A stretch of 57,104 bases of DNA. It comes from Gemmatimonadota bacterium. GTDB taxonomy: Bacteria; Gemmatimonadota; Gemmatimonadetes; Gemmatimonadales; Gemmatimonadaceae. The translations under genes were made by a program, and so were the position numbers. Of the stretch, positions 10,100 to 51,921 are shown piece by piece. The notes beneath the pieces are model-generated. The model did not search any database. It was not told the origin of the DNA and worked only from the letters and a program-made list of their open reading frames with translations. Numbering within the stretch: the stretch's first letter is position 1; each line of letters opens with the position of its first letter. The stretch is from the NCBI GenBank assembly GCA_021324775.1, contig JAJPIM010000038.1, positions 1 through 57,104 of the forward strand, in the 5' to 3' direction.

Positions 10100-11779
10100 A
10101 TGTCCGGCGGACGGATGGCAGCACTTGTGGAGCGGGGCGTGACCGCGCCCATCGTCGTGCGCACCCAACCGCTTGGCGGGGGCGCGCTCACCACGGCCGC
10201 GCTGGACGGCTCGGTCCCCAGTCACTGGTACGCACAACGGCCCGGCGATCCGCGCGCGTGGGCCGCCCGCATCGAAGAGGTCCGGCGCCAGGCGCCCGCG
10301 GATTGGCTCGGCGCGCTGTGGCCGGCGATCGCGGCGGACGGCCCGGCCGCAGAGCGGCTCCGGAACGCAGCGGCCCGCGGCGTCGTGGTGACGACCGGTC
10401 AGCAGCCCGGCCTGTTCGGCGGCCCGATGTACGCGTGGTCCAAAGCGATCGGCGTGCTGGCGCTGGCCGACGCGATCGAGAAAGCGACGGACATTCCGGT
10501 GGCGCCTCTGTTCTGGGCTGCGACCGATGACACGGATTTCGCCGAGGCGAGTACCACGTGGGTGGCCGCGCGCGGCGGCGCCGTGGCGTTGAGTGCGGTC
10601 CCCGCGGCGGAGCCGGGCACTGTGCTCGCCGGGGCGCGGCTTGGCGATCTGTCATCGGAATTCGAACGCCTCGCCGCCGCGGCGGGATCCGCGCCGTACA
10701 CCGAAGCGCTGGATGCCGTTCGCGCGGCGTATGCGGTCCACGAGTCGCGGCGCTCGCCGGTTACTGCCGGCCACGCGTACGTGGCATTGTTGCGTCGGAT
10801 TCTGGCGCCGCTGGGAGTGGCCGTGATCGACGCGTCGCACGCCGCCGTGCGGACGAGTGCGATGCCGGTGCTCGTGCGCGCGCTCGAACGCGCGGACGTC
10901 GTGGCCACGGCGTTGACGGAACGGAGCCGCGAGATCTCCGCGCACGGCTACACCCCGCAGGTGAGCGACGTCGCGGGACTGTCCCTCGTGTTCGAATGGT
11001 CGGGGCTCGGCGACCAGGCCCCGGACGGCACGGGTGGCGCCGCGTCCGATGGCGAGCCGCCGGCCGGCGCGCGCAAGACGCGGATCCCGCTCAAACGCGC
11101 GGCCGACGCGGCGACACGCGCGCCGGGGGCGACGCTGAGCGGCAACGTGCTGCTTCGGCCCGTCGTCGAGCGGAGCATCCTGCCGACCATCGCCTATCTG
11201 GGTGGTCCCGGCGAGATCGCCTACTTTGCCCAGACGAGCGCTGTTGCCGGCGCCCTCGGCCTACCCGCACCGCTGGCGGTGCCGCGCTGGTCATGCAGCC
11301 TGCTCGAGCCGGCGATCGCGGCGCTGATGGAGCGCCACGGCATCACCGAGCACGCACTGCGGGACGCACACGGCCCTGAGGGACGCCTCGCGCGCGCGGC
11401 GCTGCCCGCCGCGATCCGCGATGCGCTCGCCGCGCTTCGTGCGGCGGTGGACATCGGCATCGATGATGTGGCGGCCGCGGATCCGGCGGGTCTCGTGTCC
11501 GGCGCCGCGATCGAGGGCGCGCGCGTGCACCTCCGCCATCGGGTCGCCCACCTGGAGCGTCGCTATCTCGCTGCGGCGAAACACGCCGCGGCTGCGGTGA
11601 TGACCGATGTCGCGACGGTGCGCGGGGCGCTGCGTCCGAACGGCATGCCCCAGGAACGCGTGCTGAACTTCATCCCGTTTCTGGCGCGGGGCGGACCGGC
11701 ACTGGTCGAGTCCATGCGTGTCGAGGCGGCGCGCCACGCGATCGCGTTGGTGGGAGGCGGGTCATCGGCGATCCGATAG
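10100..11779 (+). CDS. bshC: BshC, bacillithiol biosynthesis cysteine-adding enzyme (putative)
   Basis: BshC is thought to ligate cysteine to glucosaminyl-malate in the last step of bacillithiol synthesis. The 559-residue product has VVTTGQQPGLFGGPMYAW (residues 96-113), PVAPLFWAATDDTDFAEA (133-150), and a C-terminal coiled-coil region followed by VLNFIPFLARGG. The family motif near 140 is usually a variant of FW-x(3)-EDHDF. Here it is FWAATDDTDF, with Thr where His is expected, so catalytic activity is not assured. A Gly/Pro/Asp-rich insert at about 310-325 is unusual. bshA and bshB are not in the window. Confidence 0.85.
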   Translation: MSGGRMAALVERGVTAPIVVRTQPLGGGALTTAALDGSVPSHWYAQRPGDPRAWAARIEEVRRQAPADWLGALWPAIAADGPAAERLRNAAARGVVVTTGQQPGLFGGPMYAWSKAIGVLALADAIEKATDIPVAPLFWAATDDTDFAEASTTWVAARGGAVALSAVPAAEPGTVLAGARLGDLSSEFERLAAAAGSAPYTEALDAVRAAYAVHESRRSPVTAGHAYVALLRRILAPLGVAVIDASHAAVRTSAMPVLVRALERADVVATALTERSREISAHGYTPQVSDVAGLSLVFEWSGLGDQAPDGTGGAASDGEPPAGARKTRIPLKRAADAATRAPGATLSGNVLLRPVVERSILPTIAYLGGPGEIAYFAQTSAVAGALGLPAPLAVPRWSCSLLEPAIAALMERHGITEHALRDAHGPEGRLARAALPAAIRDALAALRAAVDIGIDDVAAADPAGLVSGAAIEGARVHLRHRVAHLERRYLAAAKHAAAAVMTDVATVRGALRPNGMPQERVLNFIPFLARGGPALVESMRVEAARHAIALVGGGSSAIR

Positions 11780-27817: not shown

Positions 27818-29059
27818 CTAGGGCCCCGCTGATCGCAACAGCACTGTCGCGGTGACGGTGTCCCACGACATCGTGAGCGCGCTGCCGGGTGCGCGCGGCA
27901 CCACGGCGATGGTGAATCGCTCGGCCGGCCGCGCCGACGACGAAGACGTCATCGGGACCCGCACCAGATCGGCCGACGGATCGTACTCGGTGCCCCATTC
28001 GCCGGTCTTGCGACTCACGATGAGCGTCCATCCGGTGGGCGCCGGGATCGTGAAGATCGTATATGACCCGGCGGGCACGACAGTGCCGGCGATCCTGAGA
28101 TCCTTGCTGGTCACGAGCGACGTCGCCCAGTTGGCGCCGGTGCGCCACACGGTGTTCCAGGGCACGATGTTGCCGAAGATCTCGCGGCCGCGTTTCGAGG
28201 GCCGGCTGTAGTCGATGGTCAGGGTCGCGCCGCCCACGGTCGCGCGCACGGTGTCTCGGGTCGAGAGCATGCCGAGCGCCTTTCCATGGGCGTCGCGGTC
28301 CATGAAGTCATTGGCCCAGCGATCGAGATCGGGCCACGGAATACGGGTGACGGTTGCCTGCAGCGTGCCGCCGGGATCGGTCATGGCGAGCACGCGACCC
28401 TTGGCATCGACGGTCGCGCGAATCGTGTCCGTCGGCGTCGTGATCCTGACCGTATCGTCTCGTGGGCCAACCATGATCGACCCGGTGTCGACTTGATCGG
28501 GCACATACACCCAGGCGAACGGCATAGCGTGTCCGTGCGCTGCAAGCGCGCGCGTGACCAGGATCTGATGCAGGCCGAATCCCGGCTGGAGCAGCGGCAC
28601 GGTGGTGCGCGGGGCCGCGTAGGACATCGCGTGCGAGCTGTCCTTGCGCTGGACGATCACGTGCGCGGAATCCGACGCAAAGTCCGCGGTCACCCGCACG
28701 TCGACCGGGCTGCTCGTGAGTCCCGTCCGGTAGTGCGCCACGGAGTACCCAGTGACGACACGATCGGGCGCCGGGGTCGTGCGGGCCGTGTAGATGAACC
28801 GCGACGTGTGCGGCGCGCGAGTGACGAAATCTCCCGTAATCGAATCGGCGTACGTCACGACGCGCTCGACCGCCAGAGTGTCGGCGCCGAGGCGGATGAG
28901 AAAACCGGAGCTGTCCAGGGGTGTCGCGGACTGGGCGCGGGCCGTCGCGGGAATGGCCGCGAGCGTGGCGGCAGCGATCGCAGCGACCAGCGCGATGCCG
29001 GGCCGTCGCAACGGCGCACGAAGGTGAAGCGGCTGGGTTTTGGCGGCAACAGCGCTCAT
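27818..29059 (-). CDS. Secreted DUF2911 protein (copy 1)
   Basis: A 413-residue exported protein. A signal peptide (LRRPGIALVAAIAAATLAAI, ending ATARAQS) follows ATG 29059; the open frame extends upstream but adds nothing secretory. The C-terminal 150 residues are DUF2911: ATLTIDYSRPSKRGREIFG, NTVWRTGANWATSL, VPAGSYTIFTIP and TGEWGTEYDPSADL. The 220-residue N-terminal region (GFLIRLGADTLAVERVV onward) has no family I can name but is shared with the two other copies in this window (29246-30523 and 50695-51921). DUF2911 function is unknown; it is common in Bacteroidota and Gemmatimonadota secretomes. Confidence 0.9.
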   Translation of the reverse strand: MSAVAAKTQPLHLRAPLRRPGIALVAAIAAATLAAIPATARAQSATPLDSSGFLIRLGADTLAVERVVTYADSITGDFVTRAPHTSRFIYTARTTPAPDRVVTGYSVAHYRTGLTSSPVDVRVTADFASDSAHVIVQRKDSSHAMSYAAPRTTVPLLQPGFGLHQILVTRALAAHGHAMPFAWVYVPDQVDTGSIMVGPRDDTVRITTPTDTIRATVDAKGRVLAMTDPGGTLQATVTRIPWPDLDRWANDFMDRDAHGKALGMLSTRDTVRATVGGATLTIDYSRPSKRGREIFGNIVPWNTVWRTGANWATSLVTSKDLRIAGTVVPAGSYTIFTIPAPTGWTLIVSRKTGEWGTEYDPSADLVRVPMTSSSSARPAERFTIAVVPRAPGSALTMSWDTVTATVLLRSAGP

Positions 29060-29245: not shown

Positions 29246-30523
29246 TCAGGACCCGCTGCGACTCGCCGGACGGACGGGCAGCGTCCCGACCGTTGTGTCC
29301 CACGTGAACGTCATGACCCCGGCCGCTGGTCCGGCCGGCGCAATACCGATCGTGAATTGCTCCACCGGGCGCGGCGCGCTCGACACCCGCATCGGGATGC
29401 GCGCGAAGTCCGCGGCCGAATCGTACTCGGTGCCCCATTCGCCGGTCCGCTTGCTCACGATGAGCTTCCACCCCGTGCGGCTGGGCAGGGAGAACAGCGT
29501 GTAGCTGCCGGCGGGTATCCGTGTGCCGCCGAGCACGATGTCCTTGTCCGTGACGAACCCCGTGGCCGCGTTCGCACCGGTGCGCCAGACGTGATCCCAG
29601 AGCACGACGCCGCCGAACACATCGCGGCCGCGCTTCATGGGCCGGCCATAGTCCACCGTCAGCGTGGCATCGCCGATAGTCGCGCGCGCCGTGCCGCGCG
29701 GAGAGAGGTTGCCGAGCGATGCGCCGTTGGCATCCCGGGCGACGAAGCCGGTGGTCCAGCGCGCCAGGTCCGGCCACGGGATGCGAGTGACAATCGCCTG
29801 CATCGTTCCGCCCACATCGGTGAGCGATTGGATGCGCCCGTATCCGTCGACCACTGCCCGGACCGGGTCGTCCTTGGTGTCGATCCGGACCGTATCATCG
29901 CGCGCATCCGCTTCGGCTGATCCCTTCATCAGGAGACCGGGGAGATAGACCGCGCTGTAGCCCACGCGATTCCCGCGGGCAGCCAGTGCCCGGTCGACGA
30001 CGGATTGGAGGATGCCGTACGATGGCTCGTTCATTGGGACCGCGCTGGCCGGCACCGCGACGGTAGAGCTCTGCGATTTGTCGCCGCGATAGACGGTCAT
30101 GTGCGCCGTGTCGTTCCTGAAGTCGACGTGCATGCTCGCGCTGACTGTTCCGTCCGCTGTCGGCGCACGGTAGAAGGCGATCGTATACCCCACGATCTCG
30201 TGGGCGGGCGTGAGACGCGCCGCATAGGTGAAGCGCTCGGTCTTGGGATACCGGTCGACGACCTCGCCGATGATCGAGTCGCGCGTCGCTATCACGCGCT
30301 CGATGGCGATGGTGTCCTGGCCCAGCCGTGTGACGTACGCTGCGCTGTCTCGTGGGCCGCGCTGCCCGTGCGCCGCCGCCGCGGCCACGAGCAGGAGCGC
30401 TGCCGCGAGAACGAGCGCGGCGGCGATCGGCGCGAGGGCGGGGACAGGTCTCCTGAGCGCATGGACCCGGGTCGCCGCGCGGCCGAGAGGGCGACGTCGC
30501 GATTGGTGTGAAGACAGTAGCAT
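29246..30523 (-). CDS. Secreted DUF2911 protein (copy 2)
   Basis: A 425-residue paralogue of the preceding gene, on the same strand and 186 bp upstream of it. From ATG 30523 there is an Arg-rich N-terminus, then a long hydrophobic Ala/Leu stretch (about residues 28-50) ending AAAHGQRG, consistent with a Sec signal. The N-terminal domain (YVTRLGQDTIAIERVI) aligns with YVTRLG/GFLIRLG counterparts in the other copies. The C-terminal DUF2911 domain has ATLTVDYGRPMKRGRDVFGG, DHVWRTGANAATGF, IPAGSYTLFSLPSRTGWKLI and TGEWGTEYDSAADF. No ribosome site was found. Tandem duplication is the simplest origin. Confidence 0.9.
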   Translation of the reverse strand: MLLSSHQSRRRPLGRAATRVHALRRPVPALAPIAAALVLAAALLLVAAAAAHGQRGPRDSAAYVTRLGQDTIAIERVIATRDSIIGEVVDRYPKTERFTYAARLTPAHEIVGYTIAFYRAPTADGTVSASMHVDFRNDTAHMTVYRGDKSQSSTVAVPASAVPMNEPSYGILQSVVDRALAARGNRVGYSAVYLPGLLMKGSAEADARDDTVRIDTKDDPVRAVVDGYGRIQSLTDVGGTMQAIVTRIPWPDLARWTTGFVARDANGASLGNLSPRGTARATIGDATLTVDYGRPMKRGRDVFGGVVLWDHVWRTGANAATGFVTDKDIVLGGTRIPAGSYTLFSLPSRTGWKLIVSKRTGEWGTEYDSAADFARIPMRVSSAPRPVEQFTIGIAPAGPAAGVMTFTWDTTVGTLPVRPASRSGS

Positions 30524-30744
30524 GGCCGGAGGGACAGAGAGCCGGAGGCGACGGGCGGGACCGGAATGAGATACCGTCCGTGAATGTGGCACGAATACTC
30601 GCGAGAGGGTTGCCGTGGCGTTGCGGGACGGATGAGGCGGACGACATTCCGGACGGCGGCCATCGCCAACTAGCTTTCGGGCGCCGGGGCAAGGGTCAGG
30701 CCCCGCGTGCGCGACCTTGGTGATTGCCTCCATCGGAGAGCCCC

Positions 30745-31917
30745 GTGACGCGTTTTCGCCCAGTCTATTGCGGGTTGTGGAGTGTCGTAGCGCTGGTGGT
30801 GGCGTTGGCGTGTGGTGCCCTGGAGGCCGTGTCCGCGCAGGACGCGCATTTCTTCTATCCGCCGCCAACGCCGGGCAACATGACGATCACCAAGGATATT
30901 GCGTTCGCGTCCGGCGATACCGGGAAGCTGCGAATGGACGTGTACCGGCCGGCCGGGGAGGCATTACCGGCTCTCATCTTCTTCAATGGGACGGGGCTGC
31001 CGCGCAGCGCAGAGGTGTATGCCGGGTGGGGGCGGATTGCGGCGTACAGGGGGTTGGTCGCGATCATCCCGGATTTGCGGCCGGACAGTGCGGTGCAGGA
31101 CTTCCAGAAGCTGGTGGCGTATCTGACGGCGCACGCGGCCGACTACAAGATCGATCGGGCGGCAATGGCGCTCTATGCGGCGTCGGCGAACGTCTCGACG
31201 GCGTTTCCGATCGTCGAGGATCCGCATCAGACCGCGATCGCCGCCGCGGTGATGTACTACGGGACGGCGGCGATCACACAATTCCGCCGGGATCTCCCGA
31301 TGTTATATGTGCGCGCGGGGCTGGATCGCCCATCGGTCAACGGAGCGGGTCCCGGGTCGATCGTGGCACTGGCGGCGCTGGCGGTGTCGCAGAACGCGCC
31401 TCTGACGTTGGTGAACGATGCGGGCGGCCATCATGCGTTCGAGGTCACGGACGATGATGGGGCGACGCGGCAGGTGATCGACGAGACGATCCAGTGGGTG
31501 AAGGGGGCGGTATCGCATCCGTATCTGGACGCGGTGCGTCATGGGGCGCCGGAGGCCGAGGTGGCGGCGCAGGTGGCGTCGGGTGATGCCAAGGCGGCGG
31601 TGCCCGGGTATGCGAAACTCGTCAACGATCATCCGGACGATGCGCGGCTGCGTCTCTCCTACGCGGAAGCATTGCTGGGCGACAAGCAGTACGAGGCAGC
31701 GTGCGCGCAGTTCGAGCGGTTGAAGGGGAAGGGGTTGGGTCCGCGCGACGTGGGGTTGCCGGCGGCGCGGGCGTGCATGCAGAACGGGGACGCGGAGCTG
31801 GCACTGGCGTGGTTGCGGACGATCCCGCGGCAATTCCTGCCGGCTGACCTGCAGCAGGACCCGATGTTCGAGAGCCTGAGGATGCGGGCCGAGTTCCGGG
31901 CGCTGTTCCAGCAGTAG
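30745..31917 (+). CDS. Secreted alpha/beta-hydrolase-like protein with C-terminal TPR region
   Basis: A 390-residue protein. GTG 30745, with GGAGAG at 30735-30740, gives a signal peptide (CGLWSVVALVVALACGALEA, then VSAQDA). TTG 30724 is an alternative. Residues 35-260 resemble a dienelactone-hydrolase/BD-FAE esterase fold: LRMDVYRPAGEALPALIFF, a degenerate nucleophile elbow YAASANVS in place of GxSxG, an acidic candidate in RAGLDRPS, and a His in GGHHAFEV. Residues 265-390 contain TPR-like helices (AVPGYAKLVNDHPDDARLRL, SYAEALLGDKQYEAACAQFE). The substrate is unknown. The altered elbow leaves catalytic activity open. Confidence 0.82.
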   Translation: MTRFRPVYCGLWSVVALVVALACGALEAVSAQDAHFFYPPPTPGNMTITKDIAFASGDTGKLRMDVYRPAGEALPALIFFNGTGLPRSAEVYAGWGRIAAYRGLVAIIPDLRPDSAVQDFQKLVAYLTAHAADYKIDRAAMALYAASANVSTAFPIVEDPHQTAIAAAVMYYGTAAITQFRRDLPMLYVRAGLDRPSVNGAGPGSIVALAALAVSQNAPLTLVNDAGGHHAFEVTDDDGATRQVIDETIQWVKGAVSHPYLDAVRHGAPEAEVAAQVASGDAKAAVPGYAKLVNDHPDDARLRLSYAEALLGDKQYEAACAQFERLKGKGLGPRDVGLPAARACMQNGDAELALAWLRTIPRQFLPADLQQDPMFESLRMRAEFRALFQQ

Positions 31918-31967
31918 GGGACGAGCGGCGAAACTCCGGACTGGGTGGCGTCGTAGGCCAGGAAAAT

Positions 31968-38750: not shown

Positions 38751-39026
38751 ATGTCTCATATCGTCCAGAACAAGACCAAGCTCGCCCAACGCGTGGGCCG
38801 GATCCGGGGCCAGGTGGACGCCGTCGCGCGCGCCTTGGAAGACGGGGCCGAGTGCGGAGAGGTGCTGCGTCTCATCGCCAGCGCGCGCGGGGCGATGAAC
38901 GGCCTCATGGCCGAGGTGCTGGAGGACCACATCCGCCACCACGCGTTCCGCGGCGCCCGTTCGGGTTCGGTCGACGCCCAGGCGGCGAACGAAGTCATTG
39001 ACGTTATTCGCTCCTACCTGAAATAG
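38751..39026 (+). CDS. RcnR/CsoR-family metal-sensing repressor
   Basis: A 91-residue all-helical repressor of the DUF156 family (CsoR, RcnR, FrmR). Candidate metal ligands are H3 (MSHIVQNK), C35 (EDGAECGEVL), H60 and H64 (LEDHIRHHAF). The H-C-H-H set is that of the nickel/cobalt sensor RcnR, rather than the C-H-C set of copper-sensing CsoR. The RcnR-like N-terminus MSH and the motif GQVDAVARALEDG agree. These repressors release DNA when metal binds. It is followed by a P-type ATPase 57 bp downstream, its likely target, and preceded by an operator-like inverted repeat. Confidence 0.92.
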   Translation: MSHIVQNKTKLAQRVGRIRGQVDAVARALEDGAECGEVLRLIASARGAMNGLMAEVLEDHIRHHAFRGARSGSVDAQAANEVIDVIRSYLK

Positions 39027-39083: not shown

Positions 39084-41126
39084 ATGACGCCGAAGCCCGA
39101 AACGCTCGAGGAGGCCGCCGGCGAGCGCCTCACGCCACCCGCCCGCGCCGCCAGCACTCCCGGCTACGCTCAGCACGGCCGCGATCTGCGCGACCGCGAT
39201 CTGCACGACACCGAGCATGGGGCCGAGCAGCACGAGCACGGAGAGTCCATTGAGGGGCGGGAGATCGCCCGCGTCGTGTTCGTGGCGATCACCGCCGCGG
39301 CAGTCTGGTTTCACATCTGGGAGCCGTTCGCGAGGGTGAGCGTCATCGGACTGCTCGGCATCGCGGTGGGAGGCTATCCGATCTTCAAGGAAGCGTGGGA
39401 GAACATCCGCGAGCGCCGGATGACGATGGAGCTGTCGATGACGATCGCGCTCGTCGCGGCTCTGCTGATCGGGCAATTCTTCACGGCGCTGGTCATCATC
39501 GCGTTCGTGCTCGTCGCCGAGATTCTGGAGGGATTGACTGTCGGCCGCGGGCGGAAAGCGATCCGTAATCTCCTGGACTACCTGCCTCAGACTGCGGTCG
39601 TGCGCCGCACCGGCGGCGCGAGCGAGATCGAGGCGAGCGAGCTCACGGTGGGCGATATCGTGCTCGTTGCACCCGGGGCCCGGATCGCGGTCGACGGGCG
39701 GGTGCTCGCCGGGCACTCGTACGTCGATCAATCCACGATCACAGGTGAGTCCGTGCCGGTAGAGAAGACGATTGGCGCGCCGGTGTTCGCCGGGACGATG
39801 AACCAGACCGGGGCTCTCGATGTCGCTGCCGAACGGCTCGGACGCGACACGAGCTTCGGCAAGATCGTCGAGGTCGTCGAGCGAGCCGAACGCTCGCGCG
39901 CACCGGTGCAGAAGACGGCCGATCGCTATGCGGGCTACCTGGTATACTTTGCGCTGGGCTGTGCCGCTTTGACGTTCGCCATCACCCGCAACGCGACGTC
40001 GACGATCTCGGTGATCATCGTGGCCGGTGCGTGCGGCATCGCCGCCGGTACTCCCCTCGCAGTGCTTGGAGCCATCGGCCGGTCGGCGCGTGCCGGGGCG
40101 ATCATCAAGGGCGGCCGCTATCTGGAAGCGCTGTGGGCGATCGACACCGTCGCTTTCGACAAGACCGGCACCGTGACGATGGGTGTGCCGGAGGTCCGCG
40201 CCATTCGCCCAGTCGCCGGCACGGAGCGCGAGTTGCTCGAGGCGGCCGCTGTGGCCGGACGCCGGTCGGAGCACCCGCTGGGGCGCGCCATCGTTGCCCG
40301 CGCGAACGCCGCGGGCGTCGCCGCCGCAGAGCCGGCAACGTTCGACTATACGCCCGGTCGCGGCGTCTTGGCGACGACGGGTCGCGGGGAGCGAATCCTC
40401 GCCGGCACCCCGACGTATCTCGCCGAGCGCGGCGTCATCGGGACACCCACTGTCGGCGCCAACGGCACAGGGGAGGGTGGTCCCCTCTCATCCGTGCTCG
40501 TCGCGCGGGATGGGCGATTCCTCGGCACGATCGACGTCGCGGACGCCGTGCGACCCGAGGCCGCCGCCGCGGTGCGTGCGTTGCGCAACATGGGGCTCCG
40601 GACCGTACTCCTCACGGGCGACGCTCGCCCGGTCGCTGACGCAGTGGCTCGGGAGTTGAGAGTCGATGACGTGGGCGCCGAACTGCTGCCTGCCGAGAAA
40701 GCGGCAAGGGTTCGCGCCCTCGCGGAGAGCGGACGGAGGATCGCGATGGTCGGCGATGGCGTCAACGATGCGCCGGCACTGGTCGAGGCCAGCGTCGGGG
40801 TGGCGATGGGGTCGGGGACCGATGTGGCGCAGGAAAGCGCCGACATCGTTCTGCTGGGCAGCGACCTCCGGGCGTTCGCCGAGACCGTTCGGATTGCGCG
40901 GCGGTGCCGTGCCATCATTCGCTTCAATTTCATCGGTACGCTGTCCGTCGACGCGCTCGGCGTCGGACTCGCGGCATTCGGCTATCTGAACCCGCTCATG
41001 GCGGCGTTCATCCACGTCGCCTCGGAGCTCACCTTCATCCTGAACTCGGCGCGGCTACTGCCCGCGGTGTCGCGGGCGCCGTCGGCTCCGTCGCGCCCGG
41101 TCGCGGCTGCCACCGCTGCGGTGTGA
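39084..41126 (+). CDS. Heavy-metal P1B-type ATPase with non-canonical CPx motif
   Basis: A 680-residue metal-exporting ATPase of the inner membrane. It has TGES (residues 220-223, actuator), AFDKTGT with the phosphorylated D359, SEHPLG (395-400) and MVGDGVNDAPAL (near 556). The C-terminal helices read NFIGTLSVDALGVGLAAFGY and HVASELTFILNSARLLP. The N-terminus has no HMA CxxC domain but a His-rich stretch (about residues 30-55). The intramembrane metal site, usually CPC, SPC or TPC, is GAC (VAGACGIAAGTP, C317) with no proline. Linked to a RcnR-type sensor, nickel or cobalt export is the best guess; zinc or copper remain possible. Confidence 0.92.
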   Translation: MTPKPETLEEAAGERLTPPARAASTPGYAQHGRDLRDRDLHDTEHGAEQHEHGESIEGREIARVVFVAITAAAVWFHIWEPFARVSVIGLLGIAVGGYPIFKEAWENIRERRMTMELSMTIALVAALLIGQFFTALVIIAFVLVAEILEGLTVGRGRKAIRNLLDYLPQTAVVRRTGGASEIEASELTVGDIVLVAPGARIAVDGRVLAGHSYVDQSTITGESVPVEKTIGAPVFAGTMNQTGALDVAAERLGRDTSFGKIVEVVERAERSRAPVQKTADRYAGYLVYFALGCAALTFAITRNATSTISVIIVAGACGIAAGTPLAVLGAIGRSARAGAIIKGGRYLEALWAIDTVAFDKTGTVTMGVPEVRAIRPVAGTERELLEAAAVAGRRSEHPLGRAIVARANAAGVAAAEPATFDYTPGRGVLATTGRGERILAGTPTYLAERGVIGTPTVGANGTGEGGPLSSVLVARDGRFLGTIDVADAVRPEAAAAVRALRNMGLRTVLLTGDARPVADAVARELRVDDVGAELLPAEKAARVRALAESGRRIAMVGDGVNDAPALVEASVGVAMGSGTDVAQESADIVLLGSDLRAFAETVRIARRCRAIIRFNFIGTLSVDALGVGLAAFGYLNPLMAAFIHVASELTFILNSARLLPAVSRAPSAPSRPVAAATAAV

Positions 41127-41221: not shown

Positions 41222-42775
41222 CTAGTGTCCCGGAGCCTCGGTCGTCGCGACCGCCGTCGGCCACCCGCCACCGAGCGATTGATAGAGGTCCACGACGCCG
41301 GCCAGTGCCTGGAACTCGACGGCCACCAGCGTTTGCTCCGCAGCGAACAAGCTCCGTTGGGCGGTCAATACGTCCAAGTACGGAGCGTAGCCGGCCTCGT
41401 ACTTGTCCCGCGACAGCCGATAGGCGATACGGAGCGCTTGCACCTCCGCCTGCAACGCGACGGTTTGCTGACGATCGTTGCGCACTTCCGAGAGATAGTT
41501 ATTGACATCGTGAAAGGCGGCGAGCACAGCCTGCTCATAGGTGTTCCGCGCCTCGACCGCACGCGCCTCTGCGGCGTGCTGCGCGTCCGCGAGCGCGCCA
41601 AAATCGAAGACCGGAATCGACACGCCTGCGTAGACCTGGTAAATCTGGTTGCCTGGTGCGGTGAATGGACCCGGCGGGATGTAGCGGCTGGTTGAGAAGT
41701 TGTCGTAGCCCCAGTACCCGTTGATCGTAAACGTGGGTAACCGTGCGTCGATCGCCGCCCCGACGCCGGCCGTCGCTGCTCGGAGCTGCGCCTCGGCCTG
41801 TCGGACATCGGGCCGGCGTTCGAGCAGCTGCGACGGAATACCGACGGGCACATCGACGGCGTTTAAGACGTCGTTGAGTGAGCGCCCGCGCGGAATCGAC
41901 GCCGGGGAGCGGCCCAGGAGCACGCTGAGCTCGTTCTCTGTCTGTTCCACCTGCTTCTCGTATGATGCGACCGACGAAGCGGCGTCGCCGACGTCACCTT
42001 CGAATTGCCGCAGGTCGAGCTCCGCGATCGTGCCGCGATTGAATTTCTTTTGCGACAGTGTGTAGGTCTCCTGTCGTGACGCGAGGGTGCGTTTCGCGAT
42101 ATCCAGGTCGAGGTCCAGCTCTCGGAGCTGGAGATAGGCGGTGGCGACGGACCCGACGAGCGAGAGCAGCACGGATCGGCGGCTTTCCTCTTCCGCCAGG
42201 AGATTGCCGCGGGCCTCGGCTCGCACGTTCCGCAAGCGACCCCAAAAGTCGAGCTCCCACGATACGTTGCCCAGGCCCTCGAGATAGTTCTGCGGAGGAA
42301 TCGAGATGCTGCCCAACGCCTCCTTTTCTCGCCCCGACTGGCCGGTGATCGTGAAAGCAGGGAACAGTCCAGCGGTCGCCCGACGCAGATCGGCCTGGTA
42401 TTCCTGGACCGTCGCGGCCGCGACCCGTACGTCGCGGTTCCCGTTGATCGCGGTGACAACGAGCTGCTTGAGGACCGTGTCTTGGAACAGGTCGAACCAG
42501 GACGCCGCGGCGGTCGCGTCCGATTGCAAGAAGGTCGGCCGCGACAGCGCGCGCGTCTCGGCGTCTGACGTTGCCTCGGACGTGTCCGGCCGGCGACGGG
42601 CCATGGAGTCCCGGCTGGCGGCGAGCGCGTCATACGTTGACCTGAGCGAGTCCGCGCCAAGCGGAACCGGCCGATATTGCGGCGGCGGCTGCGTATCGGG
42701 TCGGTGGTACCCGGGCCCGACCGCACACCCCGCTGCCAGCCACATCGCAAGCGATACAAGAGAGAGGCGTGCCAC
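41222..42775 (-). CDS. Outer-membrane efflux lipoprotein (NodT/OprM family)
   Basis: The outer-membrane channel of a tripartite efflux pump, 517 residues from GTG 42775. This start gives a compact lipoprotein signal with lipobox LAAGC (MARLSLVSLAMWLAAGC). GTG 42868 would add 31 non-signal residues. The family body has AVGPGYHRPDTQPP after the lipid-anchored Cys, PTFLQSDATAAASWFDLFQD, SWELDFWGRLRNVRAEAR, LLERRPDVRQAEAQLRAA and VPLFQSLGGGW-like ends (DLYQSLGGGWP). The two outer-membrane-factor repeats are both present. It follows the RND permease gene on the same strand. Confidence 0.93.
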   Translation of the reverse strand: MARLSLVSLAMWLAAGCAVGPGYHRPDTQPPPQYRPVPLGADSLRSTYDALAASRDSMARRRPDTSEATSDAETRALSRPTFLQSDATAAASWFDLFQDTVLKQLVVTAINGNRDVRVAAATVQEYQADLRRATAGLFPAFTITGQSGREKEALGSISIPPQNYLEGLGNVSWELDFWGRLRNVRAEARGNLLAEEESRRSVLLSLVGSVATAYLQLRELDLDLDIAKRTLASRQETYTLSQKKFNRGTIAELDLRQFEGDVGDAASSVASYEKQVEQTENELSVLLGRSPASIPRGRSLNDVLNAVDVPVGIPSQLLERRPDVRQAEAQLRAATAGVGAAIDARLPTFTINGYWGYDNFSTSRYIPPGPFTAPGNQIYQVYAGVSIPVFDFGALADAQHAAEARAVEARNTYEQAVLAAFHDVNNYLSEVRNDRQQTVALQAEVQALRIAYRLSRDKYEAGYAPYLDVLTAQRSLFAAEQTLVAVEFQALAGVVDLYQSLGGGWPTAVATTEAPGH

Positions 42776-42876
42776 CTCAGTCGTCTCTTGCTGGCAATGG
42801 CGACTGACCCCCGGCTGGGACCAGCGCGTGCGCAGCACAGGGACCCACCAGTCGCTCGCTCGGCCCACGGGGTCCG

Positions 42877-45800
42877 TCAGTCATCGCCAGGCGCGGGACT
42901 CAGCAGCGCGCCGGCTTGCTGCCGCTCCTTGCCGACCCCCGACCATCTCTCGACCACGTAGAAGAGCACCGGAATGAAAAACACTCCGATGAAGGTGCCG
43001 GCCAGCATGCCTCCGATCACGGTAGTGCCCATGATCTGACGCGCCACCGATCCCGCGCCGGTCGCCGCCCAGAGCGGGACGGTACCAAGCATGAAGGCGA
43101 ACGATGTCATCAGGATCGGCCGAAGCCGTATCCGGGCGCCCTCCAGGGTGGCGTCGATGAGCGACTTGCCGAGTGCGAGCTGGTCCTTGGCAAACTCGAC
43201 AATCAGAATCGCGTTCTTGGCGGTCAATCCGATCAACATGACCAGGCCGATCTGCGAATAGACGTCGCCTTCGATTTGCACCATGTAGCTCGGCAGGAAT
43301 GCCGAGAGCAGGGTCCGACGCAGCCAAAGCATGGCGAAGGCCCCGAACACCGCGATCGGCGTGCTGAGGAGAACGCCGAACGGCAGCGTCCAGCTCTCGT
43401 AAAGCGCCGCCAAGATCAGGAAGACGAAGGTCAGGGAAAAACCAAAGATGGCCGCCGGCGAAACGCCTTGCTGTGCCAGCTTCTCCTGGAAGGACATTCC
43501 CATGTAGTCGTAGCCCATCTCGCGCGGCATGGTCTGCGCGAAGACCTCTTCCAGAGCCGCCGTGGCTTGTCCGGCGCTGTACCCGGGAGCCGCGGCGCCG
43601 TTGATTTGCGCGGCGCGATACTCGTTAAAGCGCATGGTGAACTCCGGGCCCGGACGCGCTTCAAATCGCGTCAGCGCCGCCAGCGGCACCATTTGGTTGT
43701 TGCTGTTTCGGACGAAGAACTGGCCGACATTCTCAGCCCTCGTCCGGTATTCGCCTTCGGCCTCGATATAGACCTGCCACTCTCGGCCGAAGCGGTTGAA
43801 ATAGTTAATGAACAGGCCGCCCATGAACGCCTGGACGGTCCGGTAGACATCACTGATGGGCACGCCTTGCTTGATGACTTTATCGCGGTCGACGTCGATG
43901 AACTCCTGGGGCACACTGGGAAGAAAAGTGGTGCTCAAGCCGGCAATCTCCGGTCGCTTGCTCGCCGCCGTCATGAACGTCTTCAGATTGGAGGCGAGAA
44001 ATTGCAGGTCCTGGCCGGACCTGTCCTCGAGCGCAAACGTAAATCCCCCGGCGGTGCCGACGCCCGGAATGGCCGGCGGCGAAAACGCGAAGGCGATGCC
44101 TCCCGGCACTTGGGACAGTCGCTGGTTGATGCGCTGCTTGATCGCCTGAAGCTGTTCGGCGCGAGAGCGGCGAGCGTCCCAGGGAGTCAAGGTGACGAAG
44201 AAGAATGCGTTGTAGCTCGTCTGGATAGAACTGAGCAAGCTGAAGCCGACAACGCTGGTGGTGTATTGGACGCCGGGCGTCTTGGCTAACGCCGCCTCGA
44301 TTTGCCGGGCGACCTCCTCGGTGCGTTGCAGCGAGGCGGCATTGGGCAATTGCAGATTGATGTAGAGATACCCCTGGTCCTCATCGGGCAGAAAGCTCGA
44401 TGGCACTCTCCCGGCAAAGAACGCGCCTGCTGCGCCAAACGCCACCAGCAGCACGAGCGCGATCGCGCTCTTCCGAATCAGGGCACCGCACCCTCGCACG
44501 TAGGTGTTGGTGACCTCCGCAAAGGCTCGGTTGAACCAGCCAAACAACCGGTTGAGCAGGCCTCGGCTCGTCGTTCTCGGCCGAAGCAGGAGCGCCGAGA
44601 GGGCCGGGCTCAGGGTCAGCGCGTTGAACGCCGATAGGATCACGGCAATCGCGATGGTCACGGCGAATTGCTGGTATAGACGGCCGGTGATGCCGGGAAT
44701 GAACCCCGTCGGAATGAAGACGGCCGACAGCACCAATGCGATGCCCACGACAGGGGCGGAGATCTCCTCCATGGCCTTGAGCGCCGCGGCCTTCGGTGCG
44801 AGGCCATCCTCGATGTGGCGTTCGACCGCCTCGACTACGACGATCGCGTCGTCCACCACCAGACCGATGGCCAGCACCAACCCGAACAGCGAGAGTGTGT
44901 TGACCGAGAAGCCGAACAACGGGAAAAAGACGAAGGTCCCAACCAGCGACACGGGCACGGCCAAGAGCGGGATCAGCGTGGCGCGCCAGCCTTGCAGGAA
45001 GATGTACACGACGATCGTCACCAGACCGATGGCGATGACCAGCGTGCGGAGGATCTCCTGAATGCCTTGGGTGACGGCCAGGGTGGTATCCAGCGACACG
45101 ATGTAATCCACGTCGTGCGGGAATCGCCCCTTGGCCTCGGCCATGAATCTCCTGACGCCGGCCGCGGCCTGCACCGCGTTCGAGCCGGGCAACTGGTACA
45201 CCGCGATGATGGCGCCGGGCTTTCCATTCAAGCGACCGAGCGTGGTGTAGCTCTGCGCGCCGAGCTCGATGCGCGCGACATCTTTGAGGCGCACCACGCC
45301 TCCCGCCGGAGACTCGCGAACCACGATGGCTCCGAACTCTTCGGGAGACGTGAGCCGGCCCTGGGCTCTGACAGCGTAGGTGTATTGCTGTCCTTTGGGC
45401 ACGGGTTCGCTGCCGACCTGCCCAGCAGGATTTACCGTGTTCTGCGCTTGAATGGCCGAGGTGATGTCTGGAACGGTGATCGCCAACTTGGCCAGCTGGT
45501 CTGGCTTGACCCACAACCGCATCGCGTACTGGCCGGAGCCAAAAATCTGCACGTTGCCAATGCCATAGAGTCGCGTGAGCTGATCCGCGAGATTGATATA
45601 GGCATAGTTGGACAAGAACTCCGCGTCATTTGTGCCGTTCGGCGAGTACACGCTCAGGAGCATCAGGGGCGCGGTGACCGTCTTCTGCACCGTGACGCCA
45701 AAATTGGTGACGTCCGCCGGCAGCTGCGACGCGGCTTGCGTCTCGCGCATCTGCGCGAGGATGAGGTCCGTGTTCGGTTGCGTTGCCACGTCGAAGTCGA

Positions 45801-46077
45801 CCGTGAGTCGCATCACCCCATTGGCGGTCGCGTTCAACGAATACATGTAATTCATGTTGTCCACGCCGCTCATCCGCTGCTCGATCGGCGTGGCGACAGC
45901 CTGCTCGATTGTCTGCGCATCGGCGCCCACGTAGGTGGCCTGCACCTGGACCTCGGGCGGCACGATGTTCGGGAATTGGGCCACCGGCAGCGCCGTGATG
46001 CTGACCGCGCCGACAATCACCGTGAGAATGGCAATGACGATGGCGACGATAGGGCGGTTGATGAAAAACTTGGACAC
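42877..46077 (-). CDS. RND efflux permease (HAE1 family)
   Basis: The inner-membrane proton-driven pump of a tripartite system, 1066 residues. It begins MSKFFINRPIVAIVIAILTV, the typical HAE1 start. The proton-relay motif GLVVDDAIVVVE is in transmembrane helix 4, and the second half has GLTAKNAILIVEFAKDQ and RLRPILMTSFAFMLGTVPLW. Large periplasmic loops (including the porter-domain segments) are present in both halves. HAE1 pumps export hydrophobic and amphiphilic compounds, including many antibiotics; the CusA/CzcA metal-type signature is absent. It starts three bases after the adaptor gene stop. Confidence 0.96.
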   Translation of the reverse strand: MSKFFINRPIVAIVIAILTVIVGAVSITALPVAQFPNIVPPEVQVQATYVGADAQTIEQAVATPIEQRMSGVDNMNYMYSLNATANGVMRLTVDFDVATQPNTDLILAQMRETQAASQLPADVTNFGVTVQKTVTAPLMLLSVYSPNGTNDAEFLSNYAYINLADQLTRLYGIGNVQIFGSGQYAMRLWVKPDQLAKLAITVPDITSAIQAQNTVNPAGQVGSEPVPKGQQYTYAVRAQGRLTSPEEFGAIVVRESPAGGVVRLKDVARIELGAQSYTTLGRLNGKPGAIIAVYQLPGSNAVQAAAGVRRFMAEAKGRFPHDVDYIVSLDTTLAVTQGIQEILRTLVIAIGLVTIVVYIFLQGWRATLIPLLAVPVSLVGTFVFFPLFGFSVNTLSLFGLVLAIGLVVDDAIVVVEAVERHIEDGLAPKAAALKAMEEISAPVVGIALVLSAVFIPTGFIPGITGRLYQQFAVTIAIAVILSAFNALTLSPALSALLLRPRTTSRGLLNRLFGWFNRAFAEVTNTYVRGCGALIRKSAIALVLLVAFGAAGAFFAGRVPSSFLPDEDQGYLYINLQLPNAASLQRTEEVARQIEAALAKTPGVQYTTSVVGFSLLSSIQTSYNAFFFVTLTPWDARRSRAEQLQAIKQRINQRLSQVPGGIAFAFSPPAIPGVGTAGGFTFALEDRSGQDLQFLASNLKTFMTAASKRPEIAGLSTTFLPSVPQEFIDVDRDKVIKQGVPISDVYRTVQAFMGGLFINYFNRFGREWQVYIEAEGEYRTRAENVGQFFVRNSNNQMVPLAALTRFEARPGPEFTMRFNEYRAAQINGAAAPGYSAGQATAALEEVFAQTMPREMGYDYMGMSFQEKLAQQGVSPAAIFGFSLTFVFLILAALYESWTLPFGVLLSTPIAVFGAFAMLWLRRTLLSAFLPSYMVQIEGDVYSQIGLVMLIGLTAKNAILIVEFAKDQLALGKSLIDATLEGARIRLRPILMTSFAFMLGTVPLWAATGAGSVARQIMGTTVIGGMLAGTFIGVFFIPVLFYVVERWSGVGKERQQAGALLSPAPGDD

Positions 46078-46080
46078 GGC

Positions 46081-47238
46081 TCAATTGCCCGGCGTCACGG
46101 GAGTGCTCGGCTTGATCGTGACGGGGGAGCCGTCACGGACCTTCTGCACGCCTTCCACGACTACGCGCTCTCCCGCGCGGACGCCGCTGTCGACGATCCA
46201 CATCGTGTCCACCCGCTCGCCGACCGTGATCGGCCTGAGGGCCACCTTGTCGTCACCTCCCACCACGGCCACCGAATAGGTTCCCTGGAGTTCGATCACC
46301 GCCTTCTGGGGTACGAGCATCGCACCTTTTCTCGTGTCGGGGGCGGCGCGCACCCGTCCGAACTGACCCGGGCGCAGAATGTGGTCGGGATTGGGAAATG
46401 CGCACACCACTTCGATGGTGCCCGTCGTGACGTCCACCTGCCGATTCGTCTCCAGCAGTGTGCCCTGGCGCGGATAGACCGTGCCGTCCGCCAGCACGAG
46501 CTCAAACGGCGGTGCATCCGGATGCACATCCTGTTGCGTGTGCGAGTTGATGCGTGCCGCAAAGTGCAGGTACTCCTGCTCGCTGATCGGAACGTACGCC
46601 TTGATCGGATTGACCTGCGAGACCGAGGTCAAAGTGGTGCTCGGGGTGACCAGGTTGCCGATTTGCACCTGCGCGATTCCGGCGATGCCGTCGATCCGGG
46701 ACGTGACGTGCGTGAAGTCCAGGTTCAATTGCGCCTGTTCGACTTGCGCCTCGGCCGCTTTGACCTCCGCTTCGGCCGCGAGGTACGCCTGAGTGTCATC
46801 GTCCAATTGCTGCTGCGGAATAGCGTTCTCCGCCGCCAACGGCGTCTCACGCTCGACGTCGTGCTGGATTTTGCCGGCCTGCGCCTGGCCTTGCGCGAGT
46901 TGTGCCCTCGCTTGGTCGAGTACGGCCTGAAACGGACGCATGTCGATCTGGAAGAGCAGCTGACCCTTCCGGACGAACGACCCTTCCTTATAGTTCTGGC
47001 TGACGACGTATCCTGTGACTTGTGGCTGAATCTGCGCGTTGACGTAGCCATCCAGCGTCGCGACCCATTCCCCGTACAGCGGGACATCCCGTTGTATCAC
47101 GCGGGTCACTTCGACCTCGACAGGCGGGGGTGCTGGCGCCTTCTTACTCTGGCAGCCGGCCAAGAGCACAAAGATGGGCCAAGCCATCTCGGATCCTGTG
47201 CGTGGTCTCCAGCCTGTGAGACCGGGTACGCTGAACAT
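46081..47238 (-). CDS. RND efflux periplasmic adaptor (membrane fusion) lipoprotein
   Basis: The adaptor that bridges pump and channel, 385 residues from ATG 47238. The lipobox MAWPIFVLLAGCQ lies about 17 residues in; ATG 47187 would start right at the hydrophobic core. The lipoyl-like hairpin and coiled coil are visible (VNAQIQPQVTGYVVSQNYKE, QAVLDQARAQLAQGQAQAGK), followed by beta-barrel and membrane-proximal parts (PGQFGRVRAAPDTRKGAMLV). Lipid anchoring fits AcrA-type adaptors. It is the first gene of the - strand operon adaptor-permease-channel. No local TetR-type repressor was found. Confidence 0.94.
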   Translation of the reverse strand: MFSVPGLTGWRPRTGSEMAWPIFVLLAGCQSKKAPAPPPVEVEVTRVIQRDVPLYGEWVATLDGYVNAQIQPQVTGYVVSQNYKEGSFVRKGQLLFQIDMRPFQAVLDQARAQLAQGQAQAGKIQHDVERETPLAAENAIPQQQLDDDTQAYLAAEAEVKAAEAQVEQAQLNLDFTHVTSRIDGIAGIAQVQIGNLVTPSTTLTSVSQVNPIKAYVPISEQEYLHFAARINSHTQQDVHPDAPPFELVLADGTVYPRQGTLLETNRQVDVTTGTIEVVCAFPNPDHILRPGQFGRVRAAPDTRKGAMLVPQKAVIELQGTYSVAVVGGDDKVALRPITVGERVDTMWIVDSGVRAGERVVVEGVQKVRDGSPVTIKPSTPVTPGN

Positions 47239-47700
47239 GATCTGACGCCCTTGGTTCGTTTTACACTCGGAATTCCAACACCCCGACCAGCGCATGCGGT
47301 GCGATCGCCGCGACAAGCGTTGCGGCCAATACAGAGGGAAGCGCGTAACGCCTTCTACCTCGGCCAGTCCTCCAGTCGTCCAAGCGAAATCGAGCGCGGC
47401 GCGCAGTGGCCCGATTGGGCGTCTATCACCTCCGGCCTCGCCAACACTAGGCGGCAGTGCCGCGTGTTGCAATCAGCCACAAGGGATACGAGAGCCATCG
47501 GCTGTTAGCCTTACAGCGTCATGTTACTTCTTGCGTAGGACAACCCGGGACGCACGAGCGGCCTCGGCCCCTCGAACGGGACGCTCGTTCGCAAAACCGC
47601 TTCTCGAGCGGTGATCTCGCCACCATCGGAGAGGCCTTGTCGTCGGCGTTCACCTACATGACCGCACAATTCACCGGCGTCGTCGCGCGCGGTATCAAGG
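47239..47700. other. Intergenic stretch without a supported gene
   Basis: Between the adaptor gene and the ATPase-like fragment there is no reading frame with family similarity or coding character that I trust. It probably carries the efflux operon promoter (a TAAAAC just after a TGTAAAAC-like run about 20 bp upstream of 47238 is a weak candidate). It may also hold debris from rearrangement. Confidence 0.4.
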
Positions 47701-47779
47701 CGGTGCCGTGGGATCATTGGCTTCGACTTCATCGGCACCCTGTCCGTCGACGCGCTCGGCGTCGGACTCGCTGCATTCG
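47701..47779 (+). pseudogene. 79-bp fragment homologous to the P-type ATPase gene
   Basis: This 79-bp stretch matches 40902-40980 inside the heavy-metal ATPase gene at 71 of 79 positions by eye. In the ATPase frame it encodes RCRGIIGFDFIGTLSVDALG and onward, corresponding to ATPase residues 607-632. Similarity stops on both sides and there is no open coding context, so it is a remnant of a second, related ATPase gene. It lies at the other end of the efflux operon, in direct orientation relative to the intact gene. Confidence 0.75.
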
Positions 47780-47864
47780 CCACCTCGAGCGCCTCCGTGC
47801 GCGGGAGCGACGGGCGGTCTTGGATCTCGCGAGGTTCTATCGGTGCTCGGAAGGATGACCGACA

Positions 47865-48824
47865 TTGGCTGAACCGCCCCCGCCTCTGAAATCCCGCGCG
47901 ATCCGACGATTGATCCTGCTCTCCGCGATCGTCGCGGCCGGCACGGGCATCGCCGTGGCGACCCACCCGGCGCAGGTGCGGGCAGCGCTTTCGCAGCTGA
48001 TGCGCCTCCCCATGCCTGCCCTCGCGGAAGCCTTCGTGATGGTCCTTGGCCAGCTCGCGCTCCAGAGTCTACGGCAGTGGGCCGTCGTTCCCCGGGACCT
48101 GGCGCTGAGACCCGTCCGAGTGGCGCATGCCTTCCTCTGGGGCCAGTGGCTGAACATCGTTGCGCCCGCTCGCACCGGCGATGCGCTCAGAGTCGTGCTG
48201 ATCCGGCGCGAGTCCGGCAAGGGCCTCGGGGGCGTCCCATCCGCCATTGGTGCCGTATTGGCCGACAAGGTGGTGGATCTCGCGTCCCTCGTATTGCTCT
48301 GCGCCGCGGCCGGGTCGATCGGTCTCCTTTGGACGCGGGCATACGCACGCCTGTTCGAAGCCGCAGTGGCCGCCGCTGCCGTGGTTGCCGTGGTTGCAGC
48401 CATGCGACTGCGCAGCGGTTCCCAGGAAAAACACTGGACCTGGATGCGGGATCTCCGGGACGGGTTATCGGCGCTGCGGGATGGCCCACGGGTGATGGCC
48501 AGCTTGGTGTTTGCCTTGGCGTCGTGGGTGGCCGAAGGTGGGGCACTCTGGTTGCTGTGCGCGGGGTTGGGTGTCATGCCGACCCCGTCAGAGATTCTTC
48601 TCGCCCTAGCCGTGCTGAACGTCGGCATCAGCGTGCCGATTTCGTTTGCGAATCTGGGCGTGTACGAGGCGGCGCTGGCGTCCGGTCTCGGTTACGCGGG
48701 TGTGCCGCTGCCAACTGCTCTCGCGGTCGCCGCTTCTCACCATGCCGTGGAATTGCTGGCGCAAAACGTCGCCGTCGCGGGGCTCTCGCTCTCGACCCGT
48801 GCTCCCAGCAGGATCAACCGCTAA
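47865..48824 (+). CDS. LPG synthase TM-like (UPF0104/AglD-type) membrane protein
   Basis: A 319-residue integral membrane protein with about eight hydrophobic segments, of the lysylphosphatidylglycerol-synthase transmembrane-domain family. Typical parts are HAFLWGQWLNIVAPARTGDA near residue 90, GAVLADKVVDLASLVLL near 130, and SFANLGVYEAALASGLGYAG near 262. Members without the soluble domain often act as lipid-carrier flippases or glycosyl-lipid accessory proteins. No soluble catalytic domain is attached here. TTG 47865 is preceded by GGAAGGA at 47849-47855; an ATG nearby at 47855 is in another frame and stops after five codons. Confidence 0.85.
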   Translation: MAEPPPPLKSRAIRRLILLSAIVAAGTGIAVATHPAQVRAALSQLMRLPMPALAEAFVMVLGQLALQSLRQWAVVPRDLALRPVRVAHAFLWGQWLNIVAPARTGDALRVVLIRRESGKGLGGVPSAIGAVLADKVVDLASLVLLCAAAGSIGLLWTRAYARLFEAAVAAAAVVAVVAAMRLRSGSQEKHWTWMRDLRDGLSALRDGPRVMASLVFALASWVAEGGALWLLCAGLGVMPTPSEILLALAVLNVGISVPISFANLGVYEAALASGLGYAGVPLPTALAVAASHHAVELLAQNVAVAGLSLSTRAPSRINR

Positions 48825-48968
48825 GGAGATCGTCACGCAGGCGAGACACCCCCTCAGCGCGCTCGTGAACCTCATCGACAGAAATGCGCCGGTCGAAGCG
48901 CAGCTCATCGTGGCCCGCCGGTGCAATCTGAGTCGTGGCGCGTTTTCGGCTGACGGGTTCCGCTCCTT

Positions 48969-49727: not shown

Positions 49728-49801
49728 GCCCCCGTAGCTCAGGTGGATAGAGCAGCGGTTTCCTAAACCGTTGGCCGGGTGTTCGAGTCACCCCGGGGGC
49801 A
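49728..49801 (+). tRNA. tRNA-Arg (anticodon CCT)
   Basis: All arms fold: acceptor GCCCCCG/CGGGGGC (49728-49734 with 49794-49800), D stem GCTC/GAGC, anticodon stem GCGGT/ACCGT with loop TTCCTAA giving anticodon CCT, and T stem GGGTG/CACCC with loop TTCGAGT. The discriminator base is A at 49801 and CCA is not encoded. tRNA-Arg(CCT) reads the AGG codon and is a frequent integration target. Confidence 0.95.
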
Positions 49802-49830
49802 CTGCGGAGCGTAAAGACTCAGGCCGTCAG

Positions 49831-50694: not shown

Positions 50695-51921
50695 ATGCCT
50701 CATCGGAACGAACACATCGCGCGCCATCGGATCACGCACGGCGTTATGGGCGCTCTGCTGGTACTCGCCTGCCGTCCCACTGGGCCCGCTGACCACTACG
50801 GGTTCATCACGCGCCTCGGCAACGACACCGTCGCCGTCGAGAACGTGACGCGCCAAGGCAACACGGAAACAACCGATGAGGTCGACCGGTTCCCGCTCGT
50901 TCGCGTACGGCACACCGAGATCCAGCTCGGTCCTGACGGCAGCATCCGGCATCTCGTCATGCAGATCTACACGCCGAGCGAGCCACCGGCTCAACGCCAT
51001 CGTCAAGTCGTCGCCGACGTGACGAGGGATTCCGTGTTCCTCTCGAAGACGGATAGCACGGGCACGGTCCGGCGCGCGTTCGCCACCAATGGCGGCGTTA
51101 TCGAGGCCCATCTTCCGCAGATGTACAGCCTCTATGAGCTCTACTTCGACGCGGCACTGAACCGCGCTGAGCTGGCCAAGCGACCGCCAGGCGACACGGA
51201 GCAGATGCGGCAGTTCTACATCGATCGCGAGTTCGACCAGTTCCCGCTGGGCCATGGCGTGGTGCGGCCGCTACCGGGTGGTACGGCGGAGATCTCACAC
51301 GACTGGCTGGCTGGGGTCGGAACCGCAGCCTTTGATTCGGCCGGCCACATGCTGTCGTACTCCGGCGCCAGGACGACGTACAAGGTGGACGTCAGCCGCC
51401 TCGCGACCCCTCCCGACATTCAGGCGGCGGCTGGGCGATTTGAGGCCGCCGAGGCGAAGAGCGGCGTGACAGAGCTGAGCGTGCGGGACACCGTCCGCGC
51501 GAGCATTGGCAAGGCGAGCTTCACTATCGACTACGGCCGGCCGCTCGTACGCGGGCGCGTGCTGGTCGGCAACATTCTTCCGTACGACCATGTGTGGCGG
51601 ACCGGCGCCAACGCGGCGACGCAGTTCACGACGTCGGCGCCCGTGACCGTCGCGGGCATTCGGGTACCGGCAGGGACGTACACGTTGTGGACTGTTCCAC
51701 GCACACACGGCGCCGATTTGATTGTCAACCGGGAGAGCGGCCAGTGGGGCACCGATTACGACGGCTCGCGGGACCTCGGCATGGCGCATATGACGACAGA
51801 CACGCTTGGAACGCCGGCTGAGAAGTTCACCATTTCCATCGACCCGAGCAGCAAGACGCGTGGTGCGCTCACGATGGAATGGGGGCCGTTTCGGTGGATG
51901 GCGCCTATCGAGGTACGGTGA
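50695..51921 (+). CDS. DUF2911 lipoprotein (copy 3)
   Basis: A 408-residue third paralogue. ATG 50695 gives a lipoprotein signal with VLAC (residues 23-26), so the mature protein is lipid-anchored, unlike copies 1 and 2. The N-terminal domain starts YGFITRLGNDTVAVENVT and aligns with the corresponding RLGxDTxxVE region of the other two. The DUF2911 domain has ASFTIDYGRPLVRGRVLVGN, DHVWRTGANAATQF, VPAGTYTLWTVP and SGQWGTDYDGSRDL. It is more divergent than the tandem pair. Function unknown. Confidence 0.9.
   Translation: MPHRNEHIARHRITHGVMGALLVLACRPTGPADHYGFITRLGNDTVAVENVTRQGNTETTDEVDRFPLVRVRHTEIQLGPDGSIRHLVMQIYTPSEPPAQRHRQVVADVTRDSVFLSKTDSTGTVRRAFATNGGVIEAHLPQMYSLYELYFDAALNRAELAKRPPGDTEQMRQFYIDREFDQFPLGHGVVRPLPGGTAEISHDWLAGVGTAAFDSAGHMLSYSGARTTYKVDVSRLATPPDIQAAAGRFEAAEAKSGVTELSVRDTVRASIGKASFTIDYGRPLVRGRVLVGNILPYDHVWRTGANAATQFTTSAPVTVAGIRVPAGTYTLWTVPRTHGADLIVNRESGQWGTDYDGSRDLGMAHMTTDTLGTPAEKFTISIDPSSKTRGALTMEWGPFRWMAPIEVR

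Follow-up and report, generated by a model that had tools for sequence, protein, structure and literature searches.

What is the short ATPase-like sequence that lies beyond an RND efflux operon in a Gemmatimonadota genome, and how did it come to be 6.8 kb from the gene it resembles? The stretch analysed here, which we call the window, is a contig of 57,104 nucleotides in which an intact P-type ATPase gene and a broken piece of the same sequence flank the operon in direct orientation. The initial annotation proposed that the piece was left by duplication and recombination, or that the operon had inserted between two related genes for metal export. Our analysis indicates that 47699-47779 is very probably an 81 bp vestige, no longer functional, of a duplicated copy of the P1B-ATPase gene close by, left at a breakpoint by tRNA-Arg(CCT), where gene turnover is high. 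The features on which this reading draws are collected in Table 1.

Table 1. Coordinates in the window of the ATPase relic, its parent gene and the neighbouring features.
Feature	Position	Strand	Evidence or remark
FrmR/RcnR-type (Trns_repr_metal) repressor gene, paired with the ATPase gene	38751-39026	+	PF02583, 1e-20
P1B-type heavy-metal ATPase gene, intact, 680 aa	39084-41126	+	Pfam E1-E2_ATPase, 4e-45; TIGR01525, 528.9 bits, over cut-off
HAE1-type RND drug-efflux operon, predicted (adaptor, permease, outer-membrane channel)	41222-47238	-	TIGR01730, TIGR00915 and TIGR01845, each over cut-off
ATPase relic, 81 bp, non-functional	47699-47779	+	73/81 identical to 40900-40980
Class I SAM methyltransferase remnant (5' part)	47784-47871	+	83% over 89 bp, 1e-18, to G017 L136:11564-11476
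Deletion scar, microhomology ATTGG[AC]TG	47863-47871	+	two L136 alignments overlap: one ends at 11476, the other restarts at 11016
LPG_synthase_TM-family gene, surviving between remnants	47865-48824	+	PF03706, 2e-31; 85% aa identity to G017
Radical SAM gene remnant (5' end, about 107 bp)	48826-48932	+	presumed-start ATG reads ACG; homology stops at about codon 40
tRNA-Arg(CCT)	49728-49802	+	neighbouring DNA different in each of the three genomes of the genus

A short in-frame copy of the ATPase gene

The match first noted, of 79 bp between 47701-47779 and 40902-40980, is exact as described (71/79), and the best local alignment extends it to 81 bp with 90.1% of bases identical (E = 3e-23 in the comparison within the window). 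Both edges are as sharp as had been claimed: immediately beyond them identity drops to chance, and 5/20 bases match to the left and 8/20 to the right. The relic has the same orientation as the intact gene and is in the ATPase frame (RRCRGIIGFDFIGTLSVDALGVGLAAF against RRCRAIIRFNFIGTLSVDALGVGLAAF in the parent), where the aligned segment encodes residues 606-632 of the protein. It covers 27/680 codons, without a start codon of its own and without flanking ATPase homology. Across the 4.19 Mb genome as a whole, the match of the relic to the intact gene has an E value of 1e-24, the next-best match has an E value of 0.015, and there is no third copy of the segment; none was found in viral contigs, and comparison of the window with itself revealed no other short duplicate of this kind.

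The initial annotation had named, as what would refute it, a similarity limited to a generally conserved motif, with the fragment closer to another family. We compared the same segment in 14 homologues, drawn from relatives, other phyla and plasmids, and found 40-64 of 81 bases identical to the relic, against 73/81 for the genome's own ATPase gene. The nearest homologue, from G007, matches the intact gene at 68/81 positions and the relic at 64/81. With this sequence as the outgroup, five of the eight differences between relic and intact gene fall on the relic branch and one on the branch of the intact gene, while two are undecided. Among the changes, an Arg of the intact gene has become Gly, and an Asn that the nine relatives compared all have is replaced by Asp in the relic. 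Third codon positions carry 5/8 differences, which against an expectation of one third is not significant (binomial P 0.09), but hints that the copy was perhaps under selection for a time and hence was not necessarily dead from the start.

These comparisons place the relic among pseudogenes. Its best match is a functional gene of the same genome; the 27 codons, with no start, no flanking homology and an otherwise invariant Asn replaced, encode no working product; and it is not conserved at the same place, since G017, a genome of the same genus, shares the right flank only. A search of 287 other genomes of the order did not find the junction that it forms. As far as sequence allows, the relic is to be regarded as a dead copy derived from a duplicate of the nearby ATPase gene. 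The initial argument that it is not fresh is borne out: it is a broken, non-recent copy, left by duplication with deletion or rearrangement. Because its divergence from the intact gene (10%) is similar to that between the window and G017 in the LPG_synthase_TM gene (11%), the duplication may be about as old as the split between these two species, an estimate that presumes comparable rates and is made from 81 bases. A divergence of 10% between the two copies also makes an assembly error at this place unlikely.

Neighbouring remnants and the region by tRNA-Arg(CCT)

The piece had been described simply as a fragment on the far side of the operon. This description misses its right-hand neighbour, as the relic abuts not plain intergenic DNA but the remnant of a methyltransferase gene that starts at 47784. 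In G017 this gene is intact (L136:11007-11621, minus strand; Methyltransf_23, 4e-17) and runs into the LPG_synthase_TM gene, whereas in the window its remnant passes straight into the start of the latter. The two alignments to G017 overlap by 9 bases at ATTGG[AC]TG, a sequence present there both in the methyltransferase gene and where the LPG_synthase_TM gene starts, so a deletion at a microhomology of 8-9 bp has removed about 460 bp relative to G017. The radical SAM gene, of which only the 5' end is left in the window, is likewise intact in G017 (PF04055, 6e-20). One surviving gene is therefore surrounded by three remnants, of the ATPase, the methyltransferase and the radical SAM gene. In G017 the corresponding locus, a glycosyltransferase / methyltransferase / LPG_synthase_TM / radical-SAM cluster, is intact and free of ATPase and RND genes. 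Since G096, from another genus, also has the LPG_synthase_TM / radical-SAM pair, this pair probably predates the damage in the window.

From the end of the operon to the start of the LPG_synthase_TM gene (47180-47900), we found no direct or inverted repeats and no promoter-like or terminator-like sites. The stretch immediately 5' of the relic (47604-47708) was considered as another gene remnant and rejected as unproven. It has one 27 bp match, in the same frame, in a serine hydrolase (L023), and its best score against the N-termini of PF00144 proteins was equalled in 105/500 shuffles; solved structures gave no match, and 115 other genomes gave nothing better than an E value of 0.33.

On a larger scale, the window and G017 have a common left border, a TPR-protein gene at 30724-31917 (74% over 30791-31931), and a common right border, tRNA-Arg(CCT) (100%). 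Between these borders only a DinB-family gene, the LPG_synthase_TM gene and remnants are held in common, and the place of the DinB gene in the order differs. G044, the third genome of the genus, shares only the tRNA and a few bases around it. The DNA beside the same tRNA is thus different in G000 (the genome of the window), G017 and G044, a pattern also seen at the tRNA-associated variable regions known as genomic-island hotspots. Partial tRNA copies, a second point of likeness, are present in G017: a 41 bp copy lies 2.9 kb from tRNA-Arg(CCT), and between the two is a 232 bp fragment, 84% identical to the genome's own tauE gene (tRNA, fragment and copy at L136:182-256, 386-615 and 3119-3159). 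Intact tauE and its relic are in direct orientation, which parallels the ATPase case, and because of this fragment gene relics beside tRNA-Arg(CCT) are not peculiar to the window. The neighbour genomes suggest that an integrated element may have been involved at the locus. Unlike the known hotspots, the window has no partial tRNA copy, even with up to 3 mismatches allowed, and no integrase was found among the ORFs scanned in G017, G044 and the window.

Two observations lie outside this locus. G017 has two further copies of the 3' part of the tRNA on another contig (C106; L214:1735-1787 and 10468-10514), where they bracket 8.7 kb with a second multicopper-oxidase-like gene, a stretch resembling an island at a tRNA target. 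Elsewhere in the window, 27907-28372 and 29347-29812 are 72% identical stretches in adjacent ORFs of the minus strand, which are probably paralogues in tandem, and a related third stretch lies at 51484-51621.

The ATPase cassette and the efflux operon

The parent gene belongs by its family-level profile to the P1B-type heavy-metal ATPases (TIGR01525, over cut-off). Because GAC stands where the CPC/SPC-type M4 motif with its proline would align, here and in all close relatives, we regard the protein as a putative variant of the P1B superfamily. Within residues 309-330, this ATPase and all close relatives have AGACG[IV]AAGTPLA, with alanine in place of the M4 proline, and copper and zinc P1B-ATPases have ACPCAL..ATP at the aligned place. 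Proteins with the variant motif come from the same family, from Phycisphaerales, Acidobacteria and other MAGs, and from plasmids, and their sequences point to a distinct, widespread clade.

The pairing of the ATPase gene with a repressor gene recurs in G017, G007, G004 and G077. Plasmids of Novosphingobium, Methylorubrum and Rhodanobacter also carry the pair, with integrase, transposase, IS21 or Tn3 genes nearby. The pair behaves like a mobile cassette, and a second arrival or a duplication is therefore plausible. The plasmid pairs have the same two-gene order and share the AGACG[IV]AAGTPLA motif; unlike them, the pair in the window is on a chromosome-like contig, next to a convergent HAE1 RND operon and with its own relic close by. 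G017 has a single pair, on a contig other than that of the shared locus, and in the searches made each relative with a close ATPase has one such copy.

A reading of the operon between the gene and its relic as a metal exporter did not hold. The permease scores 1106 bits with the HAE1 model TIGR00915, over the cut-off, against 298.9 bits with the CusA/CzcA model TIGR00914, below the cut-off, and for this reason the operon is predicted to be of the drug type. With a second RND operon of the genome (L200, G000 C29:146000-165000) it shares 70% identity in the outer-membrane channel but only 41% in the permease, so the components of the two may differ in their histories. There is a precedent for the adjacency of an ATPase of this clade and HAE1 genes: at L058:5022-11254, in a MAG labelled Hyphomicrobiales, genes for an HAE1-like adaptor and permease come directly after such an ATPase and point the way it does, unlike the arrangement in the window.

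Formation of the relic

The copy with its edges, its loss of coding integrity and its closest relative, the adjacent remnants, the deletion scar and the different arrangement in G017 are observed directly. From the present state of two genomes we infer the succession of events and whether the locus ever held a complete second ATPase gene. As a beginning, a mobile-type repressor-ATPase cassette would have been present twice at the locus, or a segment of the ATPase gene would have been copied in during break repair. Deletions would then have fused the residue of this copy to the methyltransferase gene, a member of the older cluster that is intact in G017. Separate losses would have taken about 460 bp between short repeats and the remainder of the radical-SAM gene. 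Thereafter the relic would have drifted without function. The ancestral state is polarised weakly, because the locus is common to only one other genome of the genus.

As to the first step, we lean slightly towards a full second ATPase gene, arisen by tandem duplication or by a second arrival of the cassette and deleted down to 81 bp. The direct orientation of the relic, the capacity of a mobile cassette to arrive twice, and the third-position bias of the differences would all agree with this origin, as would the intact tauE gene of G017 with its direct-orientation relic. Yet the other 96% of the gene has left no trace, and two close copies occur in no genome searched. Possible rather than probable is an origin as filler DNA, a short ATPase patch copied into a double-strand break during a rearrangement and never part of a second gene. 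This would explain why the piece is very short, sharp on both sides and located precisely where the join to the methyltransferase remnant lies, and a deletion at microhomology did occur nearby; the edges of the relic itself, however, have no diagnostic microhomology beyond about 3 bp, and the third-position bias, though not significant, is unexpected in a sequence that was dead on arrival. We consider improbable the broader proposal that the relic is a templated patch from end joining and that, with the tauE fragment of G017 as a second case, the genus regularly leaves captured patches at breaks near tRNA-Arg.

Of the origins first proposed, duplication with rearrangement stands, and insertion of the RND operon between two related, ancestral metal-export genes is not supported. 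The placement of relic and intact gene on either side of the operon in direct orientation would fit such an insertion, but we hold it to be very unlikely, given an operon of predicted drug type and a stretch beside the relic that lacks repeats. Because the G017 locus has no ATPase gene (nor RND genes) and each relative with a close ATPase has a single such copy in the searches made, nothing points to two ATPases as the ancestral state around an insertion site. Chance similarity or a generally conserved motif, conceivable in that the family conserves this transmembrane segment, is refuted by the E value in the genome and by 90% nucleotide identity to the own gene versus at most 79% (64/81) to the homologues compared.

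The preferred reading, a dead piece of an ATPase duplicate at a breakpoint, describes a familiar kind of object. Like bacterial pseudogene remnants at rearrangement junctions, the relic is a short, sharply bounded, eroded copy derived in frame from a parent that is intact nearby, and it is adjacent to other gene remnants and to a short-repeat deletion scar. We see no essential difference from such remnants, although the full history of the rearrangement is unrecoverable from two genomes.

The relic is real but ordinary debris of repeated gene turnover, and alone it is of little weight beyond showing where a rapidly changing part of the genome was broken. Its value is that of a marker. It suggests that the efflux and metal-pump genes arrived late next to the LPG_synthase_TM gene and form no long-standing unit with that gene, that the cluster to which the latter belongs was broken up in the source species, and that the region by tRNA-Arg(CCT) is a hotspot of turnover in the genus.
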